This document shows positions 53,533 to 62,904 of a DNA stretch of 64,000 bases, piece after piece; position 1 is the first letter of the stretch; each line of letters opens with the position of its first letter. The translations under genes were made by a program, and so were the position numbers. The stretch is taken from the NCBI GenBank assembly GCA_022548915.1, contig JAKZES010000007.1, positions 62,001 through 126,000 on the forward strand, in the 5' to 3' direction. Origin of the DNA: Verrucomicrobiaceae bacterium E54. GTDB lineage: Bacteria; Verrucomicrobiota; Verrucomicrobiia; Verrucomicrobiales; Akkermansiaceae. The notes beneath the pieces were generated by a model that saw only the letters and a list, made by a program, of their open reading frames with translations, did not search any database and was not told the origin of the DNA.

Positions 53533-53559
53533 CCCGCCGGTCGCCAGACTTTGCGGGTC

Positions 53560-54042
53560 ATGAGCAGTTCATTCGACCGTCCGGAAATCCCCGCCACCGG
53601 CATCATGGCCGATCTCGACGAAGAAGACCGCCGGTTGCTCGGGGACTACGGCGAGTTTCTCCCGGTGCATCCCGATCAGCTCCTCATCCGCGAGGGAGGT
53701 GAGCAGGACTCCCTCTACTTCGTCATTTCCGGGCTGCTTCACGTCCACACCGACACCAAGGACAAGCGCACCTTCGTCGCCCGGGTCGGCGCCGGTGAGA
53801 CCCTCGGCGAGGTGAATCTCTTCGATCCGGCCGCCGCTTCCGCATCGGTCACGGCCAAGGAGTTCAGTCAGGTATGGAAAGCCAACCGCGCCGATCTCGA
53901 GGAGTTTGCGAAGGGCTATCCGGCCGCTGCAGCGCGCCTGATGGCCGGCCTGCTTTCGGAGATGAGCAAGCGGCTGCGCCGCATGAACGAGAAGCTCGCC
54001 ACCCGCGAGGCGGAAGCCGCATTCCAAAGTTTCTGGTCCTGA
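53560..54042 (+). CDS. Cyclic nucleotide-binding domain protein without obvious HTH
   Basis: VHPDQLLIREGGEQDSLYFVISGLLHVHTDTKDKRTFVARVGAGETLGEVNLFDPAAASASVTAKEFSQVWKANRADLEEF. Confidence 0.87.
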   Translation: MSSSFDRPEIPATGIMADLDEEDRRLLGDYGEFLPVHPDQLLIREGGEQDSLYFVISGLLHVHTDTKDKRTFVARVGAGETLGEVNLFDPAAASASVTAKEFSQVWKANRADLEEFAKGYPAAAARLMAGLLSEMSKRLRRMNEKLATREAEAAFQSFWS

Positions 54043-54470: not shown

Positions 54471-56429
54471 TCACTTCGACTCGATGACCGCGACGCCGCT
54501 TTGGTCCCGCGGCACCTTCGCGGCGGCGGCCTCGATCACCCCCGGATCGCCTTCGGCGAAAAGTTCCACCGCACCGGTGCGGCCCTTGACCCGGACCGGC
54601 CCGAGAGGCCGTCCCGACTCGTCGCCAGCCGCTTCCCGCACGCTGGCCGAGTAGATCAGGTCCGCGCCGAAGACCTTGGTCAGGCCCTCGATCCTCGAAG
54701 CCAGGTTCACCGCGTCCCCGATCACTCCGAATTCGATCCGTTGGGCGGAACCCAGCTCGCCGGCGATCACTTCCCCGAGATGGAGTCCGATGCCGATCCT
54801 CAAGGGCTCGCGTCCCTCCTCCCGCCAGTTCCGGTTCAGCCGCTCAAGCTCTTCGAGCATCCCGCGCGCCGTCGCCAGCGCGGCCCTGGCGTGGTCCTCC
54901 TCATTCCCATCTCCCAACGCGCCCCAATGCGCCATCACCGCATCGCCGATGAACTTGTCGAGCGTCCCGCCGTGGCGGAAAACCACCGCCACCATGGCGG
55001 TGAGATACTCGTTGAGCTGGGCGACCACCGCCTCCGCCCCCTCGCGTTCGGAGCGCGAGGTGAAGCCGCGGACATCGGAGAACAGGACCACGACACGCCG
55101 TCGCGTGCCCTGGGAAAGCCTCGCCCATTCGGCGGGATCCCCCGCCAGCCGGTCCGCCACGTCCCGCGAAACAAACCGTCGGAACTCGTTGCGCAGGCGG
55201 AGCCGCTCGAGCCGCTCGACCACCAGCCGGTAGCTCTGGGCACCCAGCCACGCGGCGGCCACCGCCAGCACCGCGGTGGTGCCGGGAATCAGGAGCGAGG
55301 CCCAAAGAAGGCCACCGACGACCACCCCCGTCAGCGCCAGCACCAGTCCAAGCAGCCACAGCACGGCCCACAGCGGCTGGCGGATCCGGGCCGCCAACCA
55401 CGCCGACAAAAGCCCCGAACCCAGCGCCAGCCAGCCGCCCCAACCCACCGGCGTTAGAAAGGCATTGGCCAGGGCACAGGCCGCGGCCTGCAGGTGCAGC
55501 TGCGGCCCGGTGAGCGGCCCGACCGGTGTCGGATGGATGTCTCCCAGGCGCGGAGCAGTCGGCCCGATCATGACGACCTTTCCCTCGAAGGCCCGGCCCT
55601 CGCGGTGGTTCGACTGCCAGAGGCGATCGACGAAGATCCCGTGCAGGCTTTTCGGTTCATAGATGGCGGTGCCTCCGGTCTCGGCCCTCGATGCCCAGCG
55701 AAGCTCGTGATCACCCCACGGGACCTCGCCGCCCAGCTCCTCGACAATGCGGGCGGCGAGCGAGAATTCCACCGGCTCCCCCTCGAGCGGCTCGCCATTC
55801 TCGAGTCCCACGGTCGAGCGGAAGCGCGCCTCGCGGCGGACCCCGTCGAGCGGGTCGATCGGAAAATTTGCAAACCCCACCCGGGCACCGGTCTCGCGCA
55901 ACGCCGCCATGGGTTCGCTCAGCATGAACATCTCCCGCTCCCCTTCGGTCGTCCCGGCCGGCGCGAAGGTCGAAGTCAGCACCACCTTGTCGGCGTGCCG
56001 CGCCACGGCATCGATGAACGCCTGATCGGCCTCCGGATCGCTCGGACCGACGAAGACCAGGTCGATCACGATCAGCCGCGCCCCGGCGTCCGCCAGACGG
56101 TCCACCACGGCCGCCCACACCCGGCGATCCCACGGCCACCGGCCATCCATCAACCACAGCGCCTCACTGGCATTCAGGTCGGACTGCCCCGCCTCGGCGG
56201 TCGTCATCGACCCCTCGTCGATCCCCAGCAGCACCAGATCCTCCCGCTCCGCCGGTCCCCCGCTCCACCAGATCAACTCGTCGAAGACCATGCGGTCGAT
56301 CCGCCCGGCGATTCCGCCGCCTCCGGGCAGCACCCAGAGCAGCAGCCACACGCTCACCGCACCCGCCGCACCGAGCCAAAACGCCCGCCGACGATTCCGA
56401 AAGGACCGGCTTGTCATCCCATTCCGCAT
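54471..56429 (-). CDS. CHASE2-domain adenylate/guanylate cyclase
   Basis: CHASE2-like [27 protein letters not shown]...[18 protein letters not shown]..., TMs, class III cyclase [18 protein letters not shown]...[18 protein letters not shown]. Confidence 0.92.
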
Positions 56430-58272: not shown

Positions 58273-58551
58273 ATGGAACTCGACCTCATCGACGTCCACT
58301 TCGACCTCAAGGCCTTCACTCCCAAGGAGGTCGAAGAGGCGATGGAGGACCCTTTCGCCATCCGCTTTCTTCCGGAAATCGACCGGCCGGACTCCGAAAC
58401 CCGTTTCTATGCGCTCGGGCGGACCGTCGGCGACCGGCATCTGTTCCTGTGCTTCTGGACGGACGGCAAGGTCGCCCGCGTGGTCGCCGCCCGGGAGGCG
58501 AGCGAGGGAGAACAACGCTTCTACGAGCGGAAATACGCCGAATTCAAGTAG
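58273..58551 (+). CDS. BrnT-like toxin with atypical N-terminus
   Basis: EAMEDPFAIRFLPEIDRPDSETRFYALGRTVGDRHLFLCFWTDGKVARVVAAREASEGEQRFYE. Confidence 0.7.
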   Translation: MELDLIDVHFDLKAFTPKEVEEAMEDPFAIRFLPEIDRPDSETRFYALGRTVGDRHLFLCFWTDGKVARVVAAREASEGEQRFYERKYAEFK

Positions 58552-58556
58552 CCGAG

Positions 58557-58829
58557 ATGAAAACAATCACCAATTGGGATGACATCCCGGATTTCGACGA
58601 CGAGAAGGACGAGGCGGAATTCTGGCTCGAACACGAGCTGGATGGGCGCCTGATGGCCGGCTCGATCCACCAGCCGGACTCACGCGAATCGACCACCATC
58701 ACCCTCCGCTTCGACCCCCGCATGCTGTCGCGCATCAAGCGCATCGCCCGCTCCCGCTTCCTCAACTACCAGTCGATGATGAAGCAGTGGCTCGCCGAGC
58801 GCCTCGAGGACGAGTTGCGGAAGCAGTAG
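58557..58829 (+). CDS. CopG/BrnA-like antitoxin
   Basis: WDDIPDFDDEKDEAEFWLEHELDGRL...TITLRFDPRMLSRIKRIARSRFLNYQSMMKQWLAERL. Confidence 0.82.
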   Translation: MKTITNWDDIPDFDDEKDEAEFWLEHELDGRLMAGSIHQPDSRESTTITLRFDPRMLSRIKRIARSRFLNYQSMMKQWLAERLEDELRKQ

Positions 58830-58869: not shown

Positions 58870-58879
58870 TGGAGTGACT

Positions 58880-58897
58880 TTGTGAAAAATTTCACAA
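58880..58897. promoter_or_regulatory. Rex-type (or CRP/FNR-type) operator upstream of nuoD
   Basis: TTGTGAA-AAAT-TTCACAA, within a 20-bp palindrome TTTGTGAAAAATTTCACAAA (58879-58898). Confidence 0.75.
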
Positions 58898-58949
58898 ACC
58901 CCTTGCCCGTGTCCCGGTCTTGCGTCCTGATTCTCCAGCCGGATTTTTC

Positions 58950-60200
58950 ATGAGCAGCCCCAAGACCACCGAATACGAGGCCCCGGATGTCGGCAGCAAG
59001 GCCGCCGATTATCATGCCGAGACCACCGACATGATGGGCGAAAAGATGGTGCTCAACATGGGCCCCTCGCACCCGGCGACCCACGGGGTGCTGCGCCTCG
59101 TCCTCGAACTCGATGGCGAGGTGATCGAAAAGGCGGACCCGGATGTCGGCTTCCTCCACCGCGGCGATGAGAAGATCGCCGAGTCGATGCACTACAACCA
59201 GTTCGTGCCCTACACCGACCGGCTCGACTACCTGGCCCCGCTCGCCAACAATGTCGCCTACGCCTGTGCGGTCGAGAAGCTGATGGGCTGGGAGCTCCCT
59301 CCCCGCGGCCAGGCACTGCGGGTGCTGTGCTGTGAACTGGCCCGCATCTCCTCGCACATGCTCGGCGTGGGGGTCTGCGCCATGGACGTCGGGGCGATGA
59401 CCGTGTTCCTTTACACCTTCACCGAGCGCGAGAAGGTCTACAACCTCTGCGAACAACTCACCGGCGCCCGCTTCACCACCTCCTACACCCGCGTCGGCGG
59501 CCAGGTCCGCGACATGCCCGATGGCTTCGCGGCGGCCGTGCGCAAGTTCCTCGACGAGTGCTCGGTGACCATCGACGAGGTTGCCAAGCTTCTCGACAAG
59601 AACCGGATCTTCATCGAGCGGATGGCCGACGTCGGCGTGATCCCGAAGAAGGACGCGATCGCCTGGGGCATCACCGGGCCGAACCTCCGGGGCTCGGGGG
59701 TCGCGCGCGACCTGCGGAAGGACAATCCGTATCTCGGTTACGAAACCTACGATTTCGACGTCCCCGTCGCCGATGAAGGCGACTGCTACTCCCGCTACCA
59801 GATCCGGATGGAGGAAATGCGGCAGTCGATCCGGATCTGTCGCCAGGTGCTCGACACGATGCCCGACGGCCCGGTCAACCTCGCCCACGACAAGGGCATC
59901 CTCCCGGACAAGGAGCGGGTCATGATGTCGATGGAGGAGCTCATCCACCACTTCATCGTCGCCACCCAGGGCATCGATGCGCCGCCCGGCGAGGTCTATT
60001 TCGGTGCGGAGAACCCGAAGGGTGAACTCGGTTTCTACATCCACTCGACCGGCGGCGGCGTGCCGAACCGCCTGAAGATCCGCAGCCCCTCCTTCTGCAA
60101 CCTCTCGCTTTGCTCCAGGCTTCTCCCGGGTCACATGGTTTCGGACATCCCCGCCATCCTCGGGTCGCTCGACTTCGTGATGGGCGAGTGTGACCGGTGA
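58950..60200 (+). CDS. nuoD: NADH-quinone oxidoreductase subunit D
   Basis: LNMGPSHPATHGVLRLVLELDGEVI...DVGFLHRGDEKIAE...IRSPSFCNLSLCSRLLPGHMVSDIPAILGSLDFVMGECDR. Confidence 0.96.
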   Translation: MSSPKTTEYEAPDVGSKAADYHAETTDMMGEKMVLNMGPSHPATHGVLRLVLELDGEVIEKADPDVGFLHRGDEKIAESMHYNQFVPYTDRLDYLAPLANNVAYACAVEKLMGWELPPRGQALRVLCCELARISSHMLGVGVCAMDVGAMTVFLYTFTEREKVYNLCEQLTGARFTTSYTRVGGQVRDMPDGFAAAVRKFLDECSVTIDEVAKLLDKNRIFIERMADVGVIPKKDAIAWGITGPNLRGSGVARDLRKDNPYLGYETYDFDVPVADEGDCYSRYQIRMEEMRQSIRICRQVLDTMPDGPVNLAHDKGILPDKERVMMSMEELIHHFIVATQGIDAPPGEVYFGAENPKGELGFYIHSTGGGVPNRLKIRSPSFCNLSLCSRLLPGHMVSDIPAILGSLDFVMGECDR

Positions 60201-60230: not shown

Positions 60231-60905
60231 ATGAAGCTCCGCATCCTTCTCATCACCCTGTTGCTCTCCTCGCTGGCGACAGCCGCCTTCGAGCAATGGA
60301 CCAGCGCCGATGGACGCACCGCCACGATGAACCTCCTCTCCGTGACGGAGGTTGGCGGCGAGCTGGTCGGGCGCTTTTCCCTGCGTTCGGGCAAGGTGGT
60401 GGAATTGAAGGCCGGCGATCTTTCCGCCGAGGACGCGAAACGCCTGACCGAGTGGAAGCCGGACCGGGTCGGAGCCCGCGGCACCGGGGGTGACAGCGTC
60501 TTCGACGACTTCTTCGAAGGCAACCTGCTGCGACTCGACGGCAAGACCCTTGAGAGCTGTGACGTTCCAGAACCGGAGAAATACTACATTTTCTACTACA
60601 CGGCCTCATGGTGCGGCCCCTGCCAGCGCTACACCCCGTCGCTGGTGAAATGGTACAACGAGAACAAGAACGACCATTTTGAAATCGTCGTGATCACATG
60701 GGACCAGAACACCAGGGAAATGAAGGATTACGCCGTTTCCAAGAAGATGCCCTGGACCATTCTGAAGCAAAGCAAGGCCGACGACTTCCAGAAAAAGTTC
60801 CCCCATCAGGTTTCCGGGATTCCCTCCGTCATCACCTGCGGGCTGGATGGCAAGATCGTCAGCAGAACCGAATCCCTGGCCGAACTCGGCCAGCTCGTGA
60901 AGTAA
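60231..60905 (+). CDS. Secreted SHD1-like + thioredoxin (tryparedoxin-like) protein
   Basis: Signal peptide; FEQWTSADGRTATMNLLSVTEVGGELVGRFSLRSGKVVELKAGDLSAEDAKRL then YYIFYYTASWCGPCQRYTPSLVKWYNENK. Confidence 0.85.
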   Translation: MKLRILLITLLLSSLATAAFEQWTSADGRTATMNLLSVTEVGGELVGRFSLRSGKVVELKAGDLSAEDAKRLTEWKPDRVGARGTGGDSVFDDFFEGNLLRLDGKTLESCDVPEPEKYYIFYYTASWCGPCQRYTPSLVKWYNENKNDHFEIVVITWDQNTREMKDYAVSKKMPWTILKQSKADDFQKKFPHQVSGIPSVITCGLDGKIVSRTESLAELGQLVK

Positions 60906-60908
60906 GCC

Positions 60909-61484
60909 ATGTCCGAAGCCGTCCTCAAGGAACTGGTCGCGTCCCCGGAGACCCCGGGCACCAAGCATTTTCCCCCGTTCAAGCCGACCGACGAACTGGA
61001 GGCCGAGGCCACCCGTCGTCTGGCGCAGTTTCCGGATGACCACAAGCGCTCGGCGGTGCTCCCCATCCTGCACCACATCCAGCATCACCACGGTTTCATC
61101 AGCGCCGAAGCCATCCAGTGGACCGCCGACCGCCTCGGGATCGAGCCGATCAAGGTCGCCGAGGTCGTCACCTTCTACCCGGGCTTCCGACAGTCGGCGC
61201 CGGGCAAGTTCCACATCCGCGTCTGCCGCACCCTTTCCTGCGCGATGGGCGGCTCCTACGAGCTGATGGACCGGCTTTGCGAGATCACCGGCATCGACCG
61301 CAGCTCACTCGATCCGCATCACCATCCGATCGCCGTGTCCCCGTGCGGCACCTGGTCGGTGGAATTCGCCGAGTGCCTCGCCTCCTGCGGCACCGCGCCG
61401 GTGTGCCTGGTCAACGACGACTTCCACGAAGGCGTCGATGCGGACAAGTCCCGGCAACTCCTCGATCAATACGCCAAGGCCTGA
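60909..61484 (+). CDS. nuoE: NADH-quinone oxidoreductase subunit E
   Basis: AVLPILHHIQHHHGFISAEAIQWTADRLGIEPIKVAEVVTFYPGF...HIRVCRTLSCAMGG...VSPCGTWSVEFAECLASCGTAPVCLVND. Confidence 0.92.
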   Translation: MSEAVLKELVASPETPGTKHFPPFKPTDELEAEATRRLAQFPDDHKRSAVLPILHHIQHHHGFISAEAIQWTADRLGIEPIKVAEVVTFYPGFRQSAPGKFHIRVCRTLSCAMGGSYELMDRLCEITGIDRSSLDPHHHPIAVSPCGTWSVEFAECLASCGTAPVCLVNDDFHEGVDADKSRQLLDQYAKA

Positions 61485-61491
61485 GCAGACC

Positions 61492-62904
<1,413 letters not shown>

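Follow-up and report, generated by a model that had tools for sequence, protein, structure and literature searches.

The palindrome upstream of nuoD in the genome of Verrucomicrobiaceae bacterium E54 is, at a probability of about 93%, an operator of Rex, a repressor that senses NADH/NAD+, and would be part of a regulon with five such sites. It lies in the window, which is the whole stretch of 64,000 nucleotides analysed, and the initial annotation had described it as a perfect Rex-type palindrome. The 20-mer was indeed found at 58879-58898: two perfect 9-bp arms, TTTGTGAAA and TTTCACAAA, flank two unpaired central bases, and the core matches TTGTGAA-N4-TTCACAA without a mismatch, as had been claimed. 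No second match to this core was found in the window, even when up to three mismatches were allowed. The distance of 53 bp to the nuoD ATG given in the same annotation is correct when counted from the last base of the 18-mer core to the A of the ATG, but not as the gap between the 20-mer and the ATG (at 58950), which is 51 bases. The features of the region are as follows.

58879..58898 (core 58880-58897), no strand assigned: predicted Rex operator, TTTGTGAAAAATTTCACAAA, perfect consensus match, kept in relatives
58903..58908, + strand: presumed -35 box, TTGCCC, 5 nt past the operator, with a TTG box common to related promoters
58926..58933, + strand: presumed -10 region, CCTGATTC, a weak match to TATAAT; in relatives the TTG box is followed, at about 17 nt, by a moderately conserved CCTNATTC
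58950..60200, + strand: nuoD, complex I 49-kDa subunit (PF00346, E 7e-114), first gene after the operator
60231..60905, + strand: gene of a thioredoxin-like protein (PF13905, E 7e-11), between nuoD and nuoE
60909..61484, + strand: nuoE (PF01257, E 3e-37)
61492..62904, + strand: nuoF (PF01512 and PF10589)

Directly upstream of the operator (58273-58829) there is a gene of a BrnT-type toxin (PF04365) accompanied by a gene of a CopG-type antitoxin (PF12441). Judged by the distance between nuoD and nuoE, the thioredoxin-like insert is present in some genomes of the same genus and absent from others.

The E54 genome encodes a single canonical Rex, whose gene is located on a contig other than that of the window (L037:4937-5650; contig C211, 34.5-35.3 kb). 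The protein contains the winged-helix domain PF06971 and the NAD-binding Rossmann domain PF02629, and exceeds the curated cut-offs of NCBIfam models NF003992/NF003993/NF003995. Its best match in PDB is Rex 5zz5 (E 1e-46). Moreover, its alignment with solved Rex structures spans its length and takes in both the RKDL-YFG-G-RG-GY segment and the dinucleotide-binding loop, GAGNLGSA.

The search for the 18-bp core pattern in the whole 5.9-Mb assembly revealed exactly five perfect copies, no copies with one mismatch, and five copies with two mismatches, whereas 0.0016 perfect copies and 0.09 one-mismatch copies would be expected by chance, given the base composition (65% GC). Five perfect sites without any near-perfect ones are a pattern of a small regulon under strong selection. 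All five precede energy-conservation operons, namely those starting with nuoB, nuoD, nuoG, actA and atpB (some of the gene names at sites 2 to 5 were read from sequence).

Site 1, 58879..58898 of the window: precedes nuoD, the thioredoxin-like gene, nuoE and nuoF
Site 2, C211:63954: precedes nuoG, nuoH, nuoI and nuoJ
Site 3, C166:52893: between the divergent nuoB-nuoC and trpA-dapF
Site 4, C200:77567: precedes the operon of alternative complex III (a cytochrome gene followed by that of a fused molybdopterin-like/iron-sulphur subunit)
Site 5, C174:21939: precedes atpB and the remaining ATP synthase genes

The motif scan thus pointed to a regulon. The notion of a complex I island, put forward in the initial annotation, needs to be corrected: complex I is split across several contigs, with a separate copy of the operator at each of its three main clusters. 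The five sites would tie the scattered complex I genes, as well as those of alternative complex III and ATP synthase, into one predicted redox-controlled set. The loci of both nuoA copies lack an operator before nuoA. One of them belongs to a second complex I (nuoA-nuoB; L188, G000:C200:138182), within whose locus there is no Rex operator, and the other is an orphan nuoA (L187, G000:C111:49855), the locus of which is also devoid of it. Near the E54 rex gene no perfect site was found that would indicate autoregulation. In G092, a distant member of the phylum, a perfect Rex site (C11:308351-308368) is located just upstream of rex, suggesting autoregulation there.

That the palindrome is a product of chance, or a structural element without a regulator, has a negligible probability. 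Five sites were found versus about 0.002 expected; all of them stand at operons with linked functions and are kept across genera, and a reversed control pattern had no perfect match in the E54 genome and 37 relatives. Based on the site counts, the control pattern, the linkage of the operons, and the conservation, the chance origin was rejected.

E54 represents a Verrucomicrobiales species near Haloferula rosea, its nearest named species (90% NuoD identity). Perfect sites at nuoB, nuoD, nuoG, actA and atpB were present in all genomes of the same genus whose sites could be fully read (12/12), and four of the five operon sites were seen in a thirteenth one, for which one site was not listed. The nuoD site itself is conserved in 14/14 genomes of the genus that were read. 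In public genomes, 80 NuoD loci were compared: the site is perfect in 63, has one mismatch in one, and differs from the consensus by four or more mismatches in 16. Hence, neither of the outcomes named in the initial annotation as refuting it, a genome without a Rex or CRP/FNR homologue or a site not conserved in relatives, did occur. In each operon, the site stands at a nearly fixed distance from the start codon. Several genomes of the genus have extra sites, at ndh (encoding NDH-2) with the adjoining tetR gene, and at a polyprenyl synthase gene. In genera in which complex I is split differently, the sites precede nuoE, nuoF, nuoH, nuoJ or nuoM. The names of several of the genes at these additional sites were read from sequence.

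The occurrence of the operator appeared to be associated with that of its presumed regulator, with few exceptions, some of them in incomplete genomes. Rex was found in 17 of 18 tested genomes with a perfect nuoD operator, versus 5 of 15 without it (Fisher p = 0.0005, a value not corrected for kinship and obtained with genomes of unstated completeness). The exceptions in this set are one MAG in which the site but no Rex was found, and five genomes that have Rex while lacking the nuoD site. These five are the genomes of L194, L197, L200, L202 and L206; L194 and L197 further differ from the rest in their promoter region. On the NuoD tree, four changes are required to account for the genomes that lack both operator and Rex, and well-supported branches force three of these changes. 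Rex and the nuoD operator would thus have been lost together independently about four times. The 15 near-complete genomes of g3, a genus of the same family, contained no Rex and no site, and nuoD was kept in the 6/6 of them that were checked. Several freshwater Akkermansiaceae without Rex have an intact promoter block, CCCCTTGCG...CTTATTC; the operator can still be recognized at its position, but its left half is destroyed (e.g., agtgtaaaaatttcacaaaccccttgcg). A decayed operator before an intact-looking promoter in genomes deprived of Rex links the site to Rex. Decayed operators before the conserved promoter block upstream of nuoD, with no Rex found, were seen at L192, L195, L205, L211, L213 and L218. 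This repeated loss of Rex and operator, in which decayed operators remain at promoters that look intact, amounts to a clean natural experiment on how a regulon is lost.

The initial annotation had left the identity of the factor ambiguous between Rex and CRP, as the palindrome also fits the CRP pattern TGTGA-N6-TCACA. The letters do fit both, including the CRP half-sites, but the identity of the factor could be settled in favour of Rex. In favour of a CRP/FNR-type activator recognizing this pattern, the window has genes for a protein that binds cyclic nucleotides (53545-54042) and for one resembling class III cyclases (54471-56429; read from sequence). However, the genome, which is 97.5% complete, encodes five cNMP-binding proteins, all of which lack a C-terminal HTH, as judged by sequence reading and, for the window protein, a Pfam check. 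Matches to HTH_Crp_2 were weak, the best of them being a 120-aa protein without a cNMP domain, and no protein combining a cNMP/FNR sensor domain with a CRP-type HTH was found in the genome. Furthermore, five of the six genomic matches to TGTGA-N6-TCACA are the five sites with full Rex flanks, and the site disappears together with Rex. A CRP/FNR protein as the factor is therefore highly improbable, and we consider it effectively excluded on the grounds that no such protein was found and that the site and Rex were lost together. The stand-alone cNMP-binding protein without HTH and the nearby cyclase-like protein are possibly a non-transcriptional cNMP pair.

With Rex as the factor, its binding, its response to NADH, and the direction of control at the E54 sites are what we infer from studied Rex proteins. 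At high NAD+, a Rex dimer would bind the operators and hold the promoters down; rising NADH would release it, so that a back-up of electrons would lead to increased production of complex I, complex III and ATP synthase. The operator of the nuo and atp promoters adjoins the presumed -35 box on its upstream side. A TTG was present within 14 nt of the operator in all nuoD, nuoG, nuoB and atpB promoters read (75/75), and the first TTG was at 5-7 nt in 74/75 of them, across several genera. The ndh promoters, too, have a TTG box downstream of the operator, at 5-7 nt in nearly all cases. The arrangement differs in two other promoters, in which the operator lies inside the presumed promoter: the left half of the actA operator, TTGTGA, can itself serve as a -35 box, and at ispB a conserved TTGCG box stands upstream of the operator.

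A site directly upstream of the -35 box, with its centre near -50, is in an uncommon position for a repressor, as if Rex activated the nuo and atp promoters. We regard such activation as very unlikely. The Rex-less genomes keep the promoter box beside a decayed operator, which suggests that the nuoD promoter works without the operator; the operator-to-TTG spacing varies by 2 bp; and the positions of the ispB operator, downstream of the TTGCG box, and of the actA operator, with its left half usable as a -35 box, are both typical of repression. Steric repression would be the likeliest mode of Rex action at the nuo and atp promoters, since Streptomyces Rex footprints, 27-29 nt long (PMC5355995), could reach the -35 box from the operator position. 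It is also unlikely that Rex of Verrucomicrobiales is an activator or a dual regulator at nuo and atp and a repressor at promoters such as those of ispB and actA; if it were, one redox sensor would set opposite responses inside one respiratory regulon.

Taken together, these results suggest that the scattered complex I of E54 may still be made together, as every main cluster has retained the same predicted redox switch, which would also serve alternative complex III and ATP synthase. They also point to a regulon that is small and easy to test, in a phylum that has received little study. In the literature searched, the paper that mentions Rex, Verrucomicrobia and a regulon concerns gut hydrogenases, and in the passages seen no link between alternative complex III and Rex was found. 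Compared with this literature, in which Ravcheev et al. 2012 is represented through a citation, alternative complex III as a target, a scattered complex I under one operator, and the record of joint losses in Verrucomicrobiota appear to be new.

The Rex consensus generalized across several phyla is TTGTGAANNNNTTCACAA (Ravcheev et al. 2012, J Bacteriol 194:1145, as cited in PMC5317091). Rex of Staphylococcus aureus binds TTGTGAAW4TTCACAA (PMC2883068), which the E54 nuoD site matches exactly; however, the S. aureus targets are anaerobically induced genes, whereas the predicted E54 targets are genes of the respiratory chain and of ATP synthase. Sites of the TTGTGAANNNNTTCACAA type mediate the repression of nuo and atp by Rex in Streptomyces avermitilis (PMC5355995). 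The likeness to Streptomyces (S. coelicolor and S. avermitilis; PMC5355995) comprises the same operator consensus and the targeting of complex I and ATP synthase operons, as well as an NDH-2 target, which Streptomyces shares with relatives of E54. In contrast to Streptomyces, complex I of E54 is scattered, with a perfect site at each main cluster, alternative complex III is included in the set, rex has no perfect site of its own, and no site at cytochrome bd was seen. In addition, the footprinted nuo and atp sites of Streptomyces overlap the -35 box, while those of E54 are just upstream of the presumed one. Despite these differences, the operator, the regulator, and much of the predicted target set match the Rex regulon of Streptomyces; judged by sequence, the E54 system is a Rex regulon of a known type.
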